Positions 3,214-24,634 of a stretch of DNA of 24,722 nucleotides are shown here, in pieces (within the stretch, counting starts at the first letter, position 1; every line of letters begins with the position of its first letter). The position numbers were made by a program, and so were the translations under genes. Below the pieces are notes generated by a model, which worked only from the letters and a program-made list of their open reading frames with translations, did not search any database and was not told where the DNA came from. Source of the stretch: Sulfuritalea sp. (lineage in GTDB: Bacteria; Pseudomonadota; Gammaproteobacteria; Burkholderiales; Rhodocyclaceae); the NCBI GenBank assembly GCA_021738105.1, contig JAIPCS010000019.1:1-24722 (forward strand), written 5' to 3'.

Positions 3214-3675
3214 TCACGAAGGACCTTCAATCCATTGCGCGGCGCATTCCAGCGCGGCGGTGAGATTGCTGCGGGCAGCCGCTGTGATCTCTTCTCCAAG
3301 TTCAAAGCGCTCGCCGCGTATTGCCAACAGCCAGCAGGGCGGCGGCTCGCCATCGTCGATGTCGGCAAAAACCTTGAGCACGGCTTGCGGGCTCATGGCG
3401 TGGGTGGTGAAACTGGTGTCGCGCGCGGCTTCGATGCGAGTGAGCGAGCAGGGCGTCGGCGAATCGAGACTGGCATCGACAAACAGCACGCGTTGCCGGC
3501 CCTGAAGGTCGAGCGCGTGCTCCACCTGCAACTGAAAATCGGTCAGGCATTCGACGACACCCCATTCGGGGTGCAGCGTCGCAAGCGCAGTGAAGTGCTC
3601 GACGAACAGCGGGCCCAGGGCATCGTCACCCCGGCTGGGATTGCCCCAGCCGAAGACCAGCGTCGGTGCAATCAA
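3214..3675 (-). CDS. hoxW: HoxW, hydrogenase-specific maturation endopeptidase
   Basis: 153 residues. It opens with 'FGWGNPSRGDDALGP', the G-x-G-N-x-x-R-x-D-D-x-x-G motif of HyaD/HybD/HoxW-type proteases; the Asp residues bind the nickel of the precursor. A 'LFVDASLD' block follows. The family removes the C-terminal tail of the [NiFe] large subunit once nickel is in place. The neighbouring HoxH carries such a tail of 34 residues, so HoxH is the expected substrate. Last gene of the hox operon. Its start is a TTG that overlaps the hoxH stop codon (TTGA overlap), which suggests translational coupling. Confidence 0.9.
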   Translation of the reverse strand: MIAPTLVFGWGNPSRGDDALGPLFVEHFTALATLHPEWGVVECLTDFQLQVEHALDLQGRQRVLFVDASLDSPTPCSLTRIEAARDTSFTTHAMSPQAVLKVFADIDDGEPPPCWLLAIRGERFELGEEITAAARSNLTAALECAAQWIEGPS

Positions 3676-5162
3676 ACCACGACTCGCGTCAGTCCGCGAT
3701 GATCGCGCGTGATGTCGTCAATAATTTCACCGTCAGGGCCGATCAGCGCGACTTCAAGCGGCATCTGCCCGAGCGCGTGGGTGGCGCAGGACAGGCAGGG
3801 ATCGAAGGCGCGGATCGCAATCTCGATGTGATTGAGCAGGCCTTCGGTGATCTCGCGGCCATTCAGGTATTTCTTCGCCACCTCGCGTACAGCGGTGTTC
3901 ATCGCCTGGTTGTTGTGGGTGGTGGAAACGATCAGGTTGGCGCGGATGACCTGGTCGTTTTCATCGACGCGATAGTGGTGAATCAGCGTACCGCGCGGCG
4001 CCTCGATGACGCCAACGCCGCGTTCCTGACGCACACCGGTCGCCATCAAGTCGGAGCCGGTAATGTCGTCGTCGTGCAGCAAGTCCTTGATGCTTTCCGC
4101 TGCGTGCAGCATTTCTATCATGCGCGCCCAGTGGTAGCCCAGTGTTGCACCGGTGACGCTGCCACCGTCGAAAGCCAGGAACTCTTCGCGCTCCCTGTCT
4201 GCCAGCGGTGTCGCGATGTTGTCGCACATCACGACCCGTGACAGCGGTCCGACGCGGTAGGAACCCTCTTCGGGTCCCTTTGACTTGAAGAAAGGGAACT
4301 TCATGTAAGACCAGGGTTTGACGTCCTCGGCGATGACGTCCCAATAGCGACCGTAGTCGTAATGGTCGAACAAAATGTTGCCGTCGATATCGCGCGCGCG
4401 CAGGCCGCCGTGGTAAAGATCCATCGCCCCCGCGGGATTTACCAGACACATGCCGGCAGAATCGAAACGGCCGAAGGCGTTGTACTCTGGCAGGTTCTGT
4501 TCGAACAGCTGACGAATCAGGCCAACTGCATCGCGACTCCAGGCCACCATCTGGTAGGCATCCTTGAGCAATTCGGCGCGTTCGCCGGAGCTCAGCGATT
4601 TGTTCACGCCACCCGGTACCGAGCCCGTGCCGTGCACCCGCTTGCCGGCGGTCATGCGGATGACTTCCTGTCCGTATTTTCTGAGCAGCACGCCCTTTTT
4701 GGCGATTTCCGGATGGGCGGCAATGACGCCAACGATGTTGCGTGCGGCGACGTCGGAGCCGAAACCGAACAGCAGGTCGGGCGACGACAAGTGGAAAAAG
4801 TGCAGGGCATGCGATTGCAGGATCTGGCCGTAGTGCATCAGGCGGCGAATTTTCTCTGCCGTTGGCGTCAACTGCTTTACGCCGAGAATCATGTCCAGCG
4901 CTTTCGATGCCGCCAGATGGTGCGACACCGGACAGATGCCGCACAGGCGTTGCACCATGACCGGCACTTCCCAGTACGGCCTGCCTTGAATGAACTTCTC
5001 GAAGCCGCGAAATTCGACGATATGCAGGCGCACCTGATGCACCTTGTTTTCTTCGTCGAGCAGGATCGTTACCTTGCCGTGGCCTTCGACGCGGGAAACA
5101 GGATCAATGGCGACGCGGCGGAGTTTTTCCGGGGAGACGGCGGTTTCAAGTTCGAATTTCAT
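3672..5162 (-). CDS. hoxH: HoxH, large (NiFe) subunit of NAD-reducing hydrogenase
   Basis: 496 residues from the chosen ATG, in line with HoxH. All four nickel-binding cysteines are present: 'RLCGICPVSHH' near the N-terminus (Cys74, Cys77) and 'DPCLSCATH' near the C-terminus (Cys456, Cys459). 'DPVSRVEGHG' carries the conserved glutamate near the active site. After the CATH motif 34 residues remain; known processing is just after that His, so the tail should be cut by HoxW. HoxH oxidises or evolves H2 at the NiFe(CN)2CO site in the cytoplasm, paired with HoxY. An ATG-like start 33 bases upstream was rejected because it lies inside the arm of a long inverted repeat. Confidence 0.97.
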   Translation of the reverse strand: MKFELETAVSPEKLRRVAIDPVSRVEGHGKVTILLDEENKVHQVRLHIVEFRGFEKFIQGRPYWEVPVMVQRLCGICPVSHHLAASKALDMILGVKQLTPTAEKIRRLMHYGQILQSHALHFFHLSSPDLLFGFGSDVAARNIVGVIAAHPEIAKKGVLLRKYGQEVIRMTAGKRVHGTGSVPGGVNKSLSSGERAELLKDAYQMVAWSRDAVGLIRQLFEQNLPEYNAFGRFDSAGMCLVNPAGAMDLYHGGLRARDIDGNILFDHYDYGRYWDVIAEDVKPWSYMKFPFFKSKGPEEGSYRVGPLSRVVMCDNIATPLADREREEFLAFDGGSVTGATLGYHWARMIEMLHAAESIKDLLHDDDITGSDLMATGVRQERGVGVIEAPRGTLIHHYRVDENDQVIRANLIVSTTHNNQAMNTAVREVAKKYLNGREITEGLLNHIEIAIRAFDPCLSCATHALGQMPLEVALIGPDGEIIDDITRDHRGLTRVVV

Positions 5163-5175
5163 GGAAAGCCTTTCA

Positions 5176-5252
5176 CCACAGAGACACAGAGACACAGAGA
5201 AAAAGCAAATGAGATTGGTTTTGCATCTCTCTGTGCCTCTGTGTCTCTGTGG
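5176..5252. repeat. Long inverted repeat between hoxY and hoxH (CACAGAGA type)
   Basis: The arms 5176-5200 and 5228-5252 are 25 bp each, near-perfect, and separated by 27 bp. They are built of the short unit CACAGAGA. The repeat fills almost the whole hoxY-hoxH gap. In the mRNA it would form a long stem ending 13 nt before the hoxH start. Repeats of this wording are scattered in many unrelated bacterial genomes. A sister element of different wording sits at 10093-10171. Confidence 0.85.
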
Positions 5253-5261
5253 TTAGCAGTT

Positions 5262-5831
5262 TTAGTCGTAATGCAACAGGCCGTGCCCGAGATTGGGCGT
5301 GCGGCCGGCGAGCAGGTCGGTCAGCAGTTTCCAGAACGCATCGGCCGGCGGCGGGCAGCCGGGCAGGAAGTAGTCGACCTTCACCACTTCGTGGATCGGA
5401 TGCACCTTGTTCAGCGGCAGGGGCAGTTCCGGGTCGTTCGGAATGCCATGGCTACCCATCAGGTACTCGGTCTGGTACACCTCTTCGAGGATGTCGCGCA
5501 AATCAAGGTGGTTGCGCTGCGCGGGCAGGCCGCCATTGATGGCGCAGGCACCGACGGCGACCAGAATCTTGCAGTTCTTGCGAAACTCGCGCAGCACATG
5601 CACGTTCTCCGCATTGCACAGCCCGCCTTCGATCAGGCCCAGATCGCAGGGTCCGCAGTGCTTGATGTCGGTCAGTGGCGAGCGGTCGAATTCGATGTGA
5701 TCGAGCAGTTTGAGGATGCGTTCGTCGATGTCGAGAAAAGACATGTGGCAGCCGAAGCAGCCCGCGAGACTGGTGGTGGCGACACGCAGTTTTTTAACGG
5801 GAGGTGCCACCGCATTCGTCGGCGTGTTCAT
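5262..5831 (-). CDS. hoxY: HoxY, small subunit of NAD-reducing hydrogenase
   Basis: 189 residues, the short small-subunit form typical of bidirectional hydrogenases; it lacks the extra C-terminal cluster domain of uptake enzymes and has no Tat signal. Cysteines for the proximal [4Fe-4S] cluster are visible: 'AGCFGCH' (Cys25, Cys28), 'GACAINGG' (Cys96) and 'PGCPPP' (Cys159). It passes electrons from HoxH to the HoxFU diaphorase. Its start overlaps the hoxU stop by 4 bases. The downstream gap to hoxH holds the CACAGAGA inverted repeat. Confidence 0.96.
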   Translation of the reverse strand: MNTPTNAVAPPVKKLRVATTSLAGCFGCHMSFLDIDERILKLLDHIEFDRSPLTDIKHCGPCDLGLIEGGLCNAENVHVLREFRKNCKILVAVGACAINGGLPAQRNHLDLRDILEEVYQTEYLMGSHGIPNDPELPLPLNKVHPIHEVVKVDYFLPGCPPPADAFWKLLTDLLAGRTPNLGHGLLHYD

Positions 5832-6619
5832 GGCTTGGTCTCCGATGCCTGCTCGCTGATGGGCGCTTTGTCATACTTGCGTTTGCCAATGGGGATGGCG
5901 AAACCCTTGCGCTTGGGCAGGATCACGCCAACCGGGCAGATACTGGCAGCGCGATCGCTCAGCGCGATATCGGTGTCGCCAAGTTGCCCGGATTCGCTGT
6001 TGATGTGCACCTTGCGCCCGAGGATGCCGCGCCCACCCATGTAGAACACGTTTTTCTTGTCGACTTCGCGCGAGGCGACCACGCACAGCGAGCACATGAT
6101 GCAGCGGTTGAAGTCGAGCAGGATATCCGGGTGCGAGGCGTCGACAGGACGGTCGGGATAGAACATGTCGAAATGCGGCGACATCATCTTCAGCTCGTAG
6201 GCCGTCGCCTGCAGGGTGCAGTTGCCGCTTTTCTCGCAAGAGGGGCAGAAATGGTTGCCCTCGACAAAGAGCATTTGCAGCATGGTGCGACGTTTGTCAT
6301 CGAGCTCGGTTGTGCGGTTCTCGACGGTCATGCCGGGCTGCGCTTCCATGGTACAGCTTGAGCCGAAACGACCATTGACCTTGACAGTGCACAGTTTGCA
6401 CGAGCCGTGCGGTGCGAAGTCCGGGTGCCAGCACAGATGCGGAATGTAGATGCCGCTCTCGGTGGCCGCCTGCATGATGGTCTGGCCCGCGGTGAAGCTT
6501 ATGTCTTCACCATCAAGCTGAAAAATGTTGTCGGTGTTGGTATCGGCCGGCAGGTCGGCCTTGGCCAGCGCTTCGCGCTCGTTGGCCTGCACCGAAATAT
6601 CGTTGTTGCTCGTTTTCAT
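5828..6619 (-). CDS. hoxU: HoxU, iron-sulfur subunit of the hydrogenase diaphorase
   Basis: 263 residues, similar to the N-terminal part of NuoG. Cluster ligands visible in order: a plant-type [2Fe-2S] set (Cys63, Cys74, Cys77, Cys89); the His-containing set 'HFCPSCEKSGNC' (His123, Cys125, Cys128, Cys134); and a [4Fe-4S] set 'CIMCSLC' with a later 'ICPVG' (Cys173, Cys176, Cys179, Cys228). It wires HoxF to HoxY. About 30 N-terminal residues precede the ferredoxin fold and look like a non-conserved extension. Start and stop overlap hoxF and hoxY respectively by 4 bases each. Confidence 0.96.
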   Translation of the reverse strand: MKTSNNDISVQANEREALAKADLPADTNTDNIFQLDGEDISFTAGQTIMQAATESGIYIPHLCWHPDFAPHGSCKLCTVKVNGRFGSSCTMEAQPGMTVENRTTELDDKRRTMLQMLFVEGNHFCPSCEKSGNCTLQATAYELKMMSPHFDMFYPDRPVDASHPDILLDFNRCIMCSLCVVASREVDKKNVFYMGGRGILGRKVHINSESGQLGDTDIALSDRAASICPVGVILPKRKGFAIPIGKRKYDKAPISEQASETKP

Positions 6620-8415
6620 GCGTCTGCCTCGTCGGGAAAATGTGCGGCGGCGTCGTCGCGGCCGGTCATTTGTCGCGCTTGCGACAGCGCGGCATCAAGA
6701 TCAAAAGCCGGCTCGTAGTTGAGCGACATGAGTCGGCGTTCATAGGCCGGGCGAAACTTGTTTAGCGTATCGAACACAGGGTTGGAGGCGGTGTTGCCCA
6801 AACCGCAGTGACTGGCGCCCTGCATCAGTCGATGCAGCTTGAACAGTTCATCAATGTCGTAGGGTGAGCCGTGGCTGTCGGAAATTTTGTCCATCAGATT
6901 TTTTACGAGCGTGGTGCCGACCCGACAGGGAGTGCAAAAGCCGCAGGACTCATGGGCGAAGAAATGAGCAAAATTGCGAGCCACCTCGAACATGTCGCGG
7001 GTTTCGTCGAAAACCATGAAAGCGCCTGCGGTGGGCAAATCTTCGAAGGCGATCTTGCGGTCGAATTCTTCTTCGGCAATGCAGATACCCGATGGACCTG
7101 AAATCTGCACTGCCTGGGAATCGGTGGCACCGCAGTCCTCCAGCACCTGGCGCACGCTGACGCCCCAGGGGTATTCGTAGATGCCGGGCCGCTCGCAATC
7201 ACCGCTGACCGAAAGAATTTTGCTGCCGCTGGATTTTTCCGTGCCGTGCTCGGCGTACCAGGCTCCGCCATGGGTCGCGATGAGGCATGACGCGGCCAGG
7301 GTCTCGACGTTATTGACGGTGGTCGGCTGCTCAAGATAGCCGTGTGTTACCGGGAAGGGCGGGCGGATGCGTGGCCGGCCGGGTTTGCCTTCCAGCGATT
7401 CGATCAACGCGGATTCTTCGCCGCAGATATAGGCGCCGGCACCGAGGTGAATCTCGATGTCGAATTCGAAGCCGCTGTCGAGGATGTTGCTACCCAGCAG
7501 TCCTGCCGAGCGCCGTGTCGCCAGCGCCGAGTTCAGTGGCTCGAGCAGGTAACGATACTCGCCGCGAAGATAGATCAGGCCTTTCTTCGCGCCAACTACC
7601 AGGCCGGCGATGCTCATGCCCTCGAACACCAGATCGGCATAGGAGTTGAGCAGCACGCGGTCCTTGAAAGTGCCCGGCTCGCCTTCGTCCGCATTGCAGA
7701 CCACATAATGTGCCGGGTTGGCTCCGCTACCTGAGGCGTTGCGGCAGGCCTCCCATTTGAGCCCGGTACCGAAGCCGGCGCCACCGCGCCCGCGCAGTTT
7801 TGCGGTCTTGATCTCGGTCAGCGTTTGTTCCGGGCCGCGTTCCAGCGCCGCCTTGAGGGCTTGGCCCGGTTTCAGATCATGGCCCAGCAGAATGTCACGG
7901 CGGCGAATATTGTCCTCGATGGCGAACCACTCCGCTGGCCAGTCCGCCAGCGGAGTCTGGTTGCGGATCAAGCCGACCATTTCGCCCAGGCGTGCCTGTG
8001 TCATGCGTGTGATGGCGCGGTAATTCACCAACAGCGCCGGCCCCTGATCGCACATGCCGGTGCATGACGTTGTGTTTACGCTGACCAGGCCGTCCTCCGA
8101 AAGTCGGCCCGGTTCGAGCCAGAGTTTCTTGCACATCGCGTCCATCATGTCGGTGTTGCCCAGCATGCGGTCGGTGATGTTGTCCGACCAGAGCACGCAG
8201 TATCTTCCGCGCGGCCGGGTGTGGAAGAAACTGTAAAACGAGGCTGTGCCGCTCACCATCGCGCGCGGCCAGCCAACCGCATCAGCGATACGGGTCAGTG
8301 TGGCCGGGGACAGCCAGCCAAGTTCCTCTTGTACCTGGCGCAGAATTTGCATAAGACGGATGCCGTTGCAATTATTGCCGGCAAGAACACGATCGATTGC
8401 ATCAGTTTCAGACAT
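6616..8415 (-). CDS. hoxF: HoxF, NAD/FMN-binding diaphorase subunit (NuoE-NuoF fusion type)
   Basis: 599 residues, as in proteobacterial HoxF where a NuoE-like N-terminal domain is fused to NuoF. Residues about 1-155 are NuoE-like. 'LRGRGGAGFGTGLKWE' (about 207-222) is the FMN-binding loop. 'GAGAYICGEESALIESLEG' (about 325-343) with 'PGRPRIRPPFP' is the NADH site. 'ESCGFCTPCR' (Cys491, 494, 497) with Cys537 holds the [4Fe-4S] cluster. It exchanges electrons between NAD(H) and the hydrogenase. The NuoE-like domain shows Cys73-x4-Asp78 and Cys118-x3-Cys122, so one of the four cysteines of stand-alone NuoE/HoxE is absent. First gene of the operon. AGAGG lies 7 nt before the ATG. Confidence 0.96.
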   Translation of the reverse strand: MSETDAIDRVLAGNNCNGIRLMQILRQVQEELGWLSPATLTRIADAVGWPRAMVSGTASFYSFFHTRPRGRYCVLWSDNITDRMLGNTDMMDAMCKKLWLEPGRLSEDGLVSVNTTSCTGMCDQGPALLVNYRAITRMTQARLGEMVGLIRNQTPLADWPAEWFAIEDNIRRRDILLGHDLKPGQALKAALERGPEQTLTEIKTAKLRGRGGAGFGTGLKWEACRNASGSGANPAHYVVCNADEGEPGTFKDRVLLNSYADLVFEGMSIAGLVVGAKKGLIYLRGEYRYLLEPLNSALATRRSAGLLGSNILDSGFEFDIEIHLGAGAYICGEESALIESLEGKPGRPRIRPPFPVTHGYLEQPTTVNNVETLAASCLIATHGGAWYAEHGTEKSSGSKILSVSGDCERPGIYEYPWGVSVRQVLEDCGATDSQAVQISGPSGICIAEEEFDRKIAFEDLPTAGAFMVFDETRDMFEVARNFAHFFAHESCGFCTPCRVGTTLVKNLMDKISDSHGSPYDIDELFKLHRLMQGASHCGLGNTASNPVFDTLNKFRPAYERRLMSLNYEPAFDLDAALSQARQMTGRDDAAAHFPDEADA

Positions 8416-18757: not shown

Positions 18758-18880
18758 CCCTCGCTGCGAAAGGCCCGCCGGGCCGGTCGCTAAACTAGCC
18801 GGCCAAAAACCGGCCGTCGTCGGACAACGCGACCGGACAACTCCCGGCGAACCTTTCTCGCTCGGCGGCTCAGAGGGGGA
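18758..18880 (+). repeat. 123-bp dispersed repeat, left copy
   Basis: Near-identical (a few substitutions) to the reverse complement of 24512-24634. Includes an internal stem CCGGC...GCCGG around CCAAAAA. The two copies lie in inverted orientation around the entire cassette array. Translated shadows end in the same '...RRARKVRRE-SGRVVRRRPVFGRLV' tail and should not be called genes. Confidence 0.9.
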
Positions 18881-19753: not shown

Positions 19754-19835
19754 CGTTAACAGTTCAAGATCAGAGGCGCTGCGCGGCTTTATGGTGCAGC
19801 GTCCTCTGGAACGCCCGATTCGGCCACATACCTAT
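19754..19835 (-). other. attC remnant downstream of brnA
   Basis: Minus-strand GGACGCTGC...ATAAAGCCGCGCAGCGCC matches the centre of the attC sites at 22.7 and 23.8 kb. The flanking R and L boxes are diverged. It follows the brnA stop codon directly, as an attC would. Confidence 0.6.
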
Positions 19836-20131
19836 GCGCTGCGGGAATGGCGCGCTACGTACTTACGCAGCACACCATCCATGCGAGTTTGCCAACCTTC
19901 GCCCGTGGACTTGAAGTAGGCAACGACCTCTGGGCTGTAGCGCACCGACACCAGCAGCTTCTTGTTTTCGGACTTTGGTCGCCCACGCAACGATCGCAAG
20001 GGAACCATAGCCTTCAGCTGCGCAGGTGTGAGCGGCCGTGCATCAGGATCGCTTTTGGCTGCTGCAGTAATGGCCTTGTCTTCAGCCGCGGTAGGCATGC
20101 GAACGGCAGGTCGTTTAGAAACTTTCGACAT
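19832..20131 (-). CDS. brnA: BrnA-family antitoxin
   Basis: 99 residues. The pattern 'MPTAAEDKAITAAAKSDPDARPLTPAQLKAM' and the ending 'GRPKSENKKLLVSVRYSPEVVAYFKSTGEGWQTRMDGVLRKYV' are those of BrnA: a disordered N-terminal part that neutralises BrnT and a C-terminal ribbon-helix-helix that binds DNA. It overlaps the end of brnT by 17 bases, the normal order toxin then antitoxin. BrnA usually represses its own operon. It is followed by an attC remnant, so the pair was probably acquired as a cassette. Confidence 0.9.
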   Translation of the reverse strand: MSKVSKRPAVRMPTAAEDKAITAAAKSDPDARPLTPAQLKAMVPLRSLRGRPKSENKKLLVSVRYSPEVVAYFKSTGEGWQTRMDGVLRKYVARHSRSA

Positions 20132-20384
20132 AGTGCTTTACCTCCCGACGGTTGGCGCGGCGAAGGCTGATGATCCTTCGCACATCACCACGATCTACAA
20201 ATGCCACGTAGTACAGGATTTCGGTATTTGGAGCGAGCGCGATCATCCGCATCTCGTTGTATTCAATCCGTTCATCAACCCACACCAGCGCGGCTTCCCA
20301 ATCGAGTTCGACGGCCATGAGCAGGGACACGCCGTGCTTTGCTTGGTTTGCCTCATCCTTGGCTGGATCGAACTAAATACGCAT
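20115..20384 (-). pseudogene. brnT: BrnT-family toxin with in-frame amber codon at position 4
   Basis: Read from the ATG at 20384 the sequence is M-R-I-stop-F-D-P-A-K-D-E-A-N-Q-A-K-H-G-V, then the rest of a normal BrnT ending 'VRRIISLRRANRREVKHYVE' (89 codons in all). Codon 4 (20375-20373) is TAG where a GAG or CAG is expected. BrnT is a ribonuclease of the RelE fold; its N-terminal F-D-P-x-K strand is part of the fold. A shortened product could start only at the GTG at 20330, without a visible ribosome binding site. Possibilities are an inactivated toxin, a sequencing error, or amber suppression. Confidence 0.8.
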
Positions 20385-20468: not shown

Positions 20469-20524
20469 AAAACTCGGCGCTGGTAATACGACGATCGGAA
20501 AAACTCGGCGCTGGTGACACGGCG
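20469..20524 (-). repeat. Two tandem copies of the dispersed ~25-nt repeat
   Basis: 20469-20493 and 20499-20524 both begin AAAACTCGGCGCTGGT and repeat with a 31-bp period. They belong to the family at 3119, 18437, 18541 and 18619. The gap 20400-20600 holds these and a hairpin, but no gene that can be supported. Confidence 0.7.
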
Positions 20525-20551
20525 ACTGAATCAACATGAAGCTGAAATGAC

Positions 20552-20579
20552 GAATGGCGCGATGGAAATCGCGCCATTC
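20552..20579. repeat. Perfect 11-bp hairpin
   Basis: GAATGGCGCGA and TCGCGCCATTC enclose a 6-nt loop. No T-run follows on either strand. It lies left of the MITE-type terminus and could be part of that element's remnant. Confidence 0.6.
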
Positions 20580-20603
20580 AGAGGATGCTTTGCAACTCGA
20601 AAA

Positions 20604-20622
20604 GGGGTTTTTCTACAGCTTC
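20604..20622. mobile_element. Terminus of a MITE-like element at the attC4 core
   Basis: GGGGTTTTTCTACAGCTTC matches the right terminus of the 158-bp element at 23719-23737 at 17 of 19 positions and, like it, abuts the AAC triplet of an attC R' core. A matching second end was not found in 20400-20600, so it is a remnant or a diverged copy. Confidence 0.65.
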
Positions 20623-20684
20623 AACGTAGAGGTCATCGGCGGAACGCCGCAGGCGCGGAGTCCGGTGGACCGCCGGGTTGAGGG
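20623..20684 (-). other. attC site 4 (after the 213-residue membrane protein)
   Basis: Minus strand: R'' CCCTCAAC directly after the gene stop, then an imperfect palindrome, L'-type GATGACC, spacer TCTAC and the core GTT. About 62 bp, shorter than the others. R'' pairs in seven of eight bases with the core GTTGGGGG that opens this cassette at 21349-21356. Confidence 0.8.
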
Positions 20685-22641: not shown

Positions 22642-22730
22642 GTATAACGTGGAGCTGACCGGCGCTGCGCGGCTTTATCGCGCAGCGTCCAGCGGCCGAA
22701 GGGAGCGAGGTCGAGCGAAAGGTTAGAACG
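22642..22730 (-). other. attC site 2 (after the TIR gene)
   Basis: Minus strand: R'' CGTTCTAAC, whose TAA is the stop codon of the TIR gene, L'' GCTCGACC, a central stem around GCTGCGCGATAAAGCCGCGCAGC, L' GGTCAGC, spacer TCCAC and core GTTATAC. About 89 bp. L'' differs from the complement of L' by one extra C, the extrahelical base known in attC sites. R'' is the exact complement of GTTAGAACG at 23571-23579, which opens this cassette. Confidence 0.93.
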
Positions 22731-23547
22731 CACTAGGCGTCCTCGGTGTGTTTAGCAGAAGCCACTGAAAGAAGGCTTGGCCACGTTCTGTGAGTGAGGC
22801 CAATGAAGAATTTTTTTCCCAAGGCTCTATCAGCCCAAACGCGCGTGCCTCGGAAGCATTCGGGAGACCCTTGAATTCAGCATATGGCTTAGCCAAGAGA
22901 TAATTGCGACTGTGAATTAACTCATCAATAGTGCCAGATTCGAGAATTGCACGAAATTCTTCATCCTGCTTAGAGGCTGGGTTGTTTGACCGCAGTTGAT
23001 CAACCTCTTGGCGAAGTTCAGCCAGTTGCTGCTCTTTGCGAAATATCTCTCGATCTTTTTCCAGGAGTTGGCGCTGAGTAGCGACATCACCCCCTTGCAA
23101 ACTTAAATACTTTGACCAAATAGCGGAAACCAGCTGCCCAAGCTGTACGGATGAATAGTCTTTTGGCATTAGATGAAGTAAGTCATCTGTCAATTCTGGG
23201 TAACGACCGCTAATAGCCTTGTAGGTATCGTCAGAGTCAAATATTGATATGATTTTTCTGAGATCAAAGTCATTGCCGCGAGCGTGCTCGTCGCGAAGAA
23301 CATGCTTAATCTCGCGATCTACCCAAGATGACTTTAAAGAGTTTTCGGTAAAAAAGATTAGGGCAACGTCGGCTTTGTCGAGCCCATCCCGAAAGATGGA
23401 CTTGCGTAAGTTGTCACCTGGAACGATCTTTCTTTTGTCGAGCCATACGTTGATGTAGCAGTCTTCAAGGTCTCTGACGAGCGGCTCGATGCGGGTCGCC
23501 TTGTCTTCCGACGAGTGGCTAACAAATACGAGAATTGAATGGCCCAT
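22723..23547 (-). CDS. TIR-domain protein (integron cassette), putative NAD-consuming defence effector
   Basis: 274 residues. Residues 1-150 are a TIR domain: 'SILVFVSHSSEDK' (strand A and BB-loop region), 'INVWLDKRKIVPGD', 'ADVALIFFTENSLKSSWVDREIKH' with Glu79 at the place of the catalytic glutamate of NAD-cleaving TIR enzymes. A coiled coil follows (about 156-188, rich in E, K, Q, L). The C-terminal 80 residues look helical, perhaps winged-helix-like. Bacterial TIR proteins often deplete NAD+ in anti-phage defence. GAGG lies 8 nt before the ATG. Only gene of its cassette; no Argonaute, SIR2 or cyclase partner adjacent. Base composition is more AT-rich than the hox region. Confidence 0.88.
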   Translation of the reverse strand: MGHSILVFVSHSSEDKATRIEPLVRDLEDCYINVWLDKRKIVPGDNLRKSIFRDGLDKADVALIFFTENSLKSSWVDREIKHVLRDEHARGNDFDLRKIISIFDSDDTYKAISGRYPELTDDLLHLMPKDYSSVQLGQLVSAIWSKYLSLQGGDVATQRQLLEKDREIFRKEQQLAELRQEVDQLRSNNPASKQDEEFRAILESGTIDELIHSRNYLLAKPYAEFKGLPNASEARAFGLIEPWEKNSSLASLTERGQAFFQWLLLNTPRTPSAF

Positions 23548-23579
23548 TGGTATGCCTCGGGAGATATGTGCGTTCTAAC

Positions 23580-23737
23580 GAGGGTGTAGGAAAACCCCCT
23601 GAGGGGTCGAGTGTGCAGGATTGCAGGGGTCCCTTGACCATTCACCGACTGGAGATCGGCCCGTGGCGAGCGTTTTAAGAGGTCGATTTATCTGCATGGC
23701 ATTCAGCAAATTCACAAAGGGGTTTTCCTACAGCCTC
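23580..23737. mobile_element. 158-bp MITE-like element inserted at the attC1 core
   Basis: Termini GAGGGTGTAGGAAAACCCC (23580-23598) and GGGGTTTTCCTACAGCCTC (23719-23737) are inverted repeats with 18 of 19 matches. The AAC triplet is duplicated on both sides (23577-23579 and 23738-23740). Those triplets are the GTT of the attC core on the minus strand; removing the element restores a complete attC1-cassette 2 junction GTTAGAAC. No gene inside. Family of the parent transposase unknown to me. Confidence 0.85.
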
Positions 23738-23821
23738 AACGTAGAGCTAACCGGCGCTGCGCGGCTTTATCGCGCAGCGTCCAGCGACCGAAGGGAGCGA
23801 GGTTGAGCGCCGGGTTAGGGC
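23738..23821 (-). other. attC site 1 (after the first cassette gene)
   Basis: Minus strand: R'' GCCCTAAC, L'' GCTCAACC, a central stem around GCTGCGCGATAAAGCCGCGCAGC, L' GGTTAGC, spacer TCTAC and the GTT of the core. About 84 bp. L'' has one extra C compared with the complement of L'. R'' is the exact complement of the core GTTAGGGC that opens the cassette at 24129-24136. The core is split by the MITE-like element. Confidence 0.93.
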
Positions 23822-23833
23822 TTGGGCCTGTCG

Positions 23834-24121
23834 TCACGAGGAAGTCTTGTGACTGAGCACAGTGAACTCCCACACCCACGAAGCCAAACCCAACGTCAAA
23901 TAGATATCGGCTAGGGCAACATTTCTGGAGATTGGGAAAACGCTTGCTAAAAGTGAGGCCAAAGAACATAACCGTCGATCGTTCGAGGAACAGAGGTCCG
24001 TCGTGGCGGAAAACAACGCGATTGCTTCATAACTTAGCCAGACTGAAAGTGCACCGAGAAGAGCAACGCGAGCCCATCGCGGCAAGAGTTTAGGCTTCCA
24101 ATAGTCTGGCCATACTTTCAT
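23834..24121 (-). CDS. First cassette: small two-helix membrane protein, unknown function
   Basis: 95 residues. 'ARVALLGALSVWLSYEAIALF' (about 17-37) is a clear transmembrane helix and 'ALADIYLTLGLASWVWEFTVL' (about 69-89) a second. The loop between holds two cysteines ('LCSSNDRRLCSL'). No family recognised. The gene starts 7 bases after the attI core and so sits in the first cassette position, which is normally the best expressed. A GCGAG lies just upstream of the ATG. It ends 12 bp before attC1. Confidence 0.72.
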   Translation of the reverse strand: MKVWPDYWKPKLLPRWARVALLGALSVWLSYEAIALFSATTDLCSSNDRRLCSLASLLASVFPISRNVALADIYLTLGLASWVWEFTVLSHKTSS

Positions 24122-24511: not shown

Positions 24512-24634
24512 TCCCCCTCTGAGCCGCCGAGCGAGGAAGGTTCGCCGGGAGAAGTCCGGTCGCGTTGTCCGACGACGGCCGGTTTTTGGCCGGCTAGTTT
24601 AGCGACCGGCCCGGCGGGCCTTTCGCAGCGAGGG
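24512..24634 (-). repeat. 123-bp dispersed repeat, right copy
   Basis: Reverse complement of 18758-18880 with a few substitutions. It lies on the far side of attI, so the two copies enclose the whole array. Confidence 0.9.

Follow-up and report, generated by a model that had tools for sequence, protein, structure and literature searches.

The window analysed here is the whole stretch of 24,722 nucleotides from the Sulfuritalea sp. contig JAIPCS010000019.1. Its minus strand is the direction of the cassette genes, and on this strand an attC ending CTCTACGTT is followed by a 158-bp element and then by GTTAGAAC and the cassette of a TIR-domain gene. The features of this region are:

19758 to 19824, minus strand: further attC, no element end seen (covariance model, E 2.7e-8)
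20501 to 20622, minus strand: attC-proximal end of a related insertion sequence (IS), a 122-bp remnant that abuts the second attC
20623 to 20683, minus strand: second occupied attC (covariance model, E 1.3e-5)
22646 to 22726, minus strand: attC of the TIR-gene cassette, empty, 91% identical to the occupied attC
22723 to 23547, minus strand: TIR-domain gene, in the cassette after the MITE (Pfam TIR_2, E 2.3e-17)
23577 to 23579, minus strand: GTT copy 2, the start of the next cassette (GTTAGAAC)
23580 to 23598, plus strand: terminal inverted repeat, distal, GAGGGTGTAGGAAAACCCC
23580 to 23737, minus strand: MITE, 158 bp, with its 23737 end toward attC
23719 to 23737, minus strand: terminal inverted repeat, attC-proximal, GAGGCTGTAGGAAAACCCC (minus-strand reading)
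23738 to 23740, minus strand: GTT copy 1, the final triplet of the attC
23738 to 23818, minus strand: occupied attC, 81 bp (model match 23808-23738, E 1.2e-6, the last base touching the MITE)

Read on the minus strand, the order at the MITE is ..CTCTAC GTT, element, GTT AGAAC; on the plus strand AAC stands at both 23577-23579 and 23738-23740, flanking the element. The terminal inverted repeats are 19 nt long and pair at 18 of 19 positions (95% complementary, one mismatch). In 20 random sequences with the first-order composition of the window, no inverted-repeat pair of equal quality was found within 400 bp, and the real window also contains a few further strong inverted repeats. Our coordinates and the attC model agree in this with the preliminary description, which had placed a non-coding 158-bp element with 19-bp terminal inverted repeats precisely at the GTT of an attC, with the triplet doubled.

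We class the element as a MITE: it is short and non-coding, carries terminal inverted repeats, lies in a doubled target (GTT/GTT), and has both further copies and autonomous relatives with the same ends. It is not a gene cassette with its own 3' attC, the attC model giving no match inside 23580-23737 at E up to 1. Rfam searched at gathering score gave no match over the whole window, which argues against a group IIC-attC intron, and the element does not belong to the IS1111-attC group, since its relatives carry DDE families and the repeats are terminal rather than subterminal. IS1111 is not known to duplicate its target. A consensus scan revealed no promoter at 23480-23900. A conserved fold inside the MITE is not supported: of the 25 consensus pairs most belong to the terminal repeats, and covariation counts against such a fold.

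Sixteen attC sites from other genomes went into the attC covariance model, which gave four matches below E 0.001 in the window plus two weak ones. Two of the four strong matches (23738-23808 and 20623-20683) are adjoined exactly by an element end. The second of these ends (20622, abutting attC 20683-20623), missing from the preliminary description, belongs to the IS remnant at 20501-20622, which is 75-81% identical to stretches of loci L076, L089, L021, L024, L058 and L067; no far end of this remnant was found.

BrnT/BrnA toxin-antitoxin genes (window 19832-20330) adjoin the IS remnant, and DNA about 80% identical to this stretch lies beside another element end in L050. A repeat unit with ACTCGGCGCTGGT occupies window 20470-20526, and L024 contains a portion of this unit several times, like a dispersed repeat. 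The TIR-domain gene (22723-23547) gave weak matches to Thoeris ThsB (Pfam 3.4e-4, PADLOC 4.5e-10), its best PADLOC match being PDC-S66 (3.8e-15). The cassette stretch is flanked by a 123-bp sequence present twice in inverted orientation (18758-18880 and 24512-24634, 97.6% identical). Judged by eye, window 3214-8415 (minus strand) is a hydrogenase-diaphorase gene cluster.

A scan for the end pattern over a one-genome-per-species collection returned at least 119 stretches, which are neither a complete nor a random sample. When the insertion points were tabulated, 110 of 124 ends, in 105 of 119 stretches, abutted GTT at a cassette joint among the matches listed, rather than lying mostly at random, non-attC places. 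Among these listed matches, 83 ends were preceded by GTT, 27 by AAC and 14 by other triplets; the AAC-preceded ends are the other side of the element, from which a cassette start, GTTA or GTTG, follows outward. Four of the 14 listed off-triplet ends (L040, L047, L081 and L091) lie, by eye, at an attC with an altered triplet, and the other ten listed have no partner end and are regarded as fortuitous. Among the matches listed, the base before GTT on the attC side is C in 93% of 82 flanks. An attC match (E < 0.01) ending no more than one base from the element was present at 45 of the 83 listed GTT ends, and no attC match below E 0.01 at the other 38; with the loci used for the model left out, a match within one base was present at 29 of 67 listed GTT ends. 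A crude and uncontrolled folding test was passed by 61 of the 83 listed GTT ends. Note that none of the 124 listed ends had an attC match on the opposite side within 8 bases.

Ends within 2.1 kb were paired with the nearest partner, and this gave 98 elements unique by their flanks. GTT was found on both sides in 89 of these 98 pairs among the matches listed, and the doubling was seen, in the same listed matches, in elements of all sizes: 34 of 40 below 500 bp, 50 of 53 above 1500 bp and 5 of 5 in between. Each of the nine other listed pairs keeps the triplet on one side; these include L133, with the triplet in inverted order, and L174 and L026, which are wrong pairings from the nearest-partner rule. 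In no pair among the matches listed was there an identical flanking triplet other than GTT.

Sites near-identical to the window's attC were collected as those ending CTCTACGTT with at most 8 of 81 mismatches, 30 of the loci being the best matches from a search of 297 genomes. Among the 37 distinct sites of this set, 33 are empty, the triplet not being followed at once by another GTT, and four are occupied (the window, L058, L064 and L286). In L058, the identical 81-bp attC carries a 1805-bp IS at the same base. Since 33 of the 37 copies are empty and have a single GTT, as against the four occupied ones, the GTT is doubled on insertion; the second GTT would be either a copy of the target triplet or one that the element brought with it.

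Among the matches listed, 34 of the 40 small elements measure 98-223 bp. Related elements of 156-160 bp are present in the window, L131, L198, L106, L064, L078 and L053, and the window MITE matches the L131 copy at 85% identity over 158 bp and the L198 copy at 77% over 161 columns. In Marinobacter ELB17, three different joints each hold a 167-bp copy (98-100% identity among the three) with a GTT triplet on either side; an attC model match touches one of the three, and the flanks of the other two were judged by eye. Some forms of 185-399 bp derive from full elements by internal deletion (L090, L118 and L066). The window MITE has only its ends in common with the full elements, the best match being 20 bp at a threshold of E 1e-4. 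As DNA, it gave one 26-bp match in 369 genomes of one class and no match in plasmids and phages; in viral contigs, one end pattern gave 20 matches, none with a partner within 4 kb.

The preliminary description had proposed looking for full-length elements that share the ends and encode a transposase. Such elements were found; they are about 1.75-1.85 kb long and encode a protein of about 525 residues. The transposases of two relatives match nearly the entire length of the IS1182 model (NCBIfam NF033551; E 1.6e-78 and 6e-78). Their scores, 264.8 and 262.9 bits, fall a little short of the curated cut-off of 270, and we class them as IS1182-type. The same transposases match Pfam DDE_Tnp_1_6 and DUF772. 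No transposase of this attC-specific lineage was seen within the window. Since these full-length elements share its ends and carry a transposase, the window element is probably the miniature of an IS lineage. The "new kind of attC parasite" suggested in the preliminary description stands as a miniature at attC, but probably not as a stand-alone parasite.

To avoid selecting loci by their ends, we also searched by transposase alone, in 249 genomes of one family and in the 369 genomes of one class. Relatives were present in 38 of the 249 (E 1e-40 or better) and in 26 of the 369 (pieces of at least 39% identity, many of them fragments). We examined 63 loci, 60 from these searches and 3 from plasmid records. 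Both ends were recognised in 36 of the 63, and 32 of these 36 are GTT/GTT; the four others are L194 (GTT/GTT if paired by hand), a truncated copy (L195), a partial one (L266) and one with an altered side (L273). Another 18 loci have one recognised end beside GTT or AAC, a class defined by the triplet and hence no test. No end was recognised in nine loci, three of which are ordinary IS1182 elements. The control set, drawn from the same bacterial family, was 20 loci whose transposases are of the ordinary IS1182 kind (24-34% identity). None has an attC at the element, the one attC match (E 0.0022, L204) lying 1.0 kb away. The repeats of these control elements are mostly different (in three loci none was found), but some come close: at each end of L220, an ordinary locus with no attC, 2 of 16 positions differ from the repeat of the lineage.

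When 71 transposases were placed in a tree, the 50 rows associated with attC, five of them with one end recognised only, formed one side of a branch that has support 100/100 and is present in all 200 bootstrap trees; long branches meet at this branch, and the targets were checked for 18 of the 21 other rows. In an alignment of 13 attC-group and 8 ordinary transposases, no extra domain was visible by eye in the attC group, and a sequence search of solved structures gave no match. The cysteine-rich stretch is also present in some ordinary relatives. In plasmids, the transposase search (E up to 1e-50) identified two Pseudoalteromonas replicons and one Catenovulum replicon (45-50% identity), and in these the element ends lie beside GTT or AAC. 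A gene annotated with a group II intron maturase domain (L243, 1733-2245) lies in Catenovulum near a fragmentary IS of the attC group.

Relative to the attC, the transposase points away in 36 of 50 elements and toward it in 14, with 2 changes on the tree. Miniatures with matching interiors, compared after their ends were trimmed, fall into six groups, and all 18 comparisons show the two partners facing attC the same way. Since the orientation is fixed within a lineage, the two element ends must be told apart. In 101 elements, position 3 of the repeat is C in 2% at the attC-facing end versus 24% at the far end, a bias that would fit a near end constrained by the purines in GTTRRRY; the copies being related, this is only suggestive.

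The same anatomy would be produced by the integron integrase, if a circle with GTT between the abutted element ends recombined with attC as a pseudo-cassette. This route predicts a fixed orientation as well as a GTT at either flank, and within lineages the orientation is indeed fixed. Moreover, an integron integrase was present above the cut-off in 17 of 20 genomes searched; one of these 20, G021, is without a transposase match in the family search. However, G192, which together with G215 and G005 has no integrase above the cut-off, carries three 1797-bp copies that are 100% identical, and all three are in contact with an attC model match. These copies at attC in a genome without the integrase lead us to favour the transposase as the mover. 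G192 may have lost its integrase after transposition, or its assembly may have a gap. In addition, the target preference tracks the transposase group and the window element contains no attC match, and we consider insertion by the integrase improbable.

Still less likely, in our opinion, is a transposase that targets any hairpin or palindrome, with attC merely the commonest of them. The attC sites are imperfect palindromes and IS1272, from the same family, replaces stem-loops in the account given by the accessible text of PMC5678879. At the tested loci, however, attC lies on one side only and ends at the triplet; here the attC is kept and GTT is doubled, whereas in that text IS1272 removes its target and leaves no duplication. 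Finally, the element could belong to the cassette proper, as the preliminary description had allowed for its ends, or be an ordinary MITE at attC by chance. A single copy would not decide the matter, and we consider this reading negligible given the 33 empty copies of the window's attC and the related 156-160-bp copies at other attC sites in other genomes.

We therefore hold it very likely that the MITE was moved in trans by an attC-specific IS1182 lineage, becoming the leader of the next cassette. The target, the doubled GTT, the orientation, the single transposase group and the near-identical miniatures in one genome are all documented by sequence comparison. We infer that the window copy itself was moved in trans, and that attC, and not another feature of the joint, is what is recognised. 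In the proposed mechanism, a DDE transposase supplied by a full-length relative would bind the inverted repeats, recognise the R' end of attC and join the element to either side of GTT, resulting in a 3-bp duplication, with the same end facing attC within a lineage. The attC would retain its GTT and the opening purines of the R' core (GTTGAG), and the element would become the 5' leader of the following cassette, able to travel along with it.

The occupied attC still ends in GTT, followed by GAGG or GAAG in most copies. This suggests that, in the window, the first attC retains its triplet and the element is attached to the second cassette, and a cassette excised at GTT would presumably take the element as its leader. 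L068 and L182 are 82% identical over 2424 bp; this similarity sets in two bases ahead of the triplet and covers both the element and the following gene, and their upstream attC sites are unrelated; after the following gene there is an attC in L182 and none shown in L068. This one locus pair, a single case, fits the leader model. A tandem element pair at L251, also a single case, suggests that the site remains a target. The broader proposal, to which we give slightly less than an even chance, is that a DDE lineage reads attC, inserts one way on the crossover triplet, rebuilds a near-consensus R' core from the bases at its own start, and, along with the miniatures derived from it, spreads as a cassette leader via the integrase as well as its own transposase.

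In the accessible literature, which leaves subscription papers mostly outside, we found no description of IS1182 elements at attC, and a database record may exist. The available text of PMC12444791, PMC7923331, PMC3826837, PMC11089894, PMC11187229, PMC8618304 and PMC13367494 describes no such element. With the IS1182 family, the full-length relatives have the type of transposase in common, but the attC target and the doubled GTT are absent from the 20 ordinary relatives. As described in the accessible part of PMC5678879, IS1272 (IS1182 family) replaces its stem-loop target without duplication; it shares the family and a stem-loop-bearing target with the elements studied here, in which the attC stays and GTT is doubled. 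The integron mobilization unit and other Tn3-derived miniatures have Tn3-family ends and are likewise integron-linked, but the text of PMC13367494 available to us describes no attC target for them. Group IIC-attC introns, which have a ribozyme and a retroelement protein (PMC7923331, accessible text), have the target in common and a different anatomy. The IS1111-attC group comprises insertion sequences that target attC (Tetu and Holmes 2008 and Post and Hall 2009, as cited in other papers), with a DEDD transposase, a guide RNA and subterminal repeats in the available text of PMC11187229. The target is the same, but the lineage analysed here has a DDE transposase, terminal repeats, doubled GTT and miniature forms. 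Two questions become testable: by what means an enzyme of the cut-and-paste type recognises attC and sets its orientation, and how cassettes acquire leaders. The attC parasites named in the accessible literature are the RNA-guided DEDD group (IS1111-attC) and the group IIC introns, and a DDE lineage that includes miniatures would add another, independent way of using the attC target.
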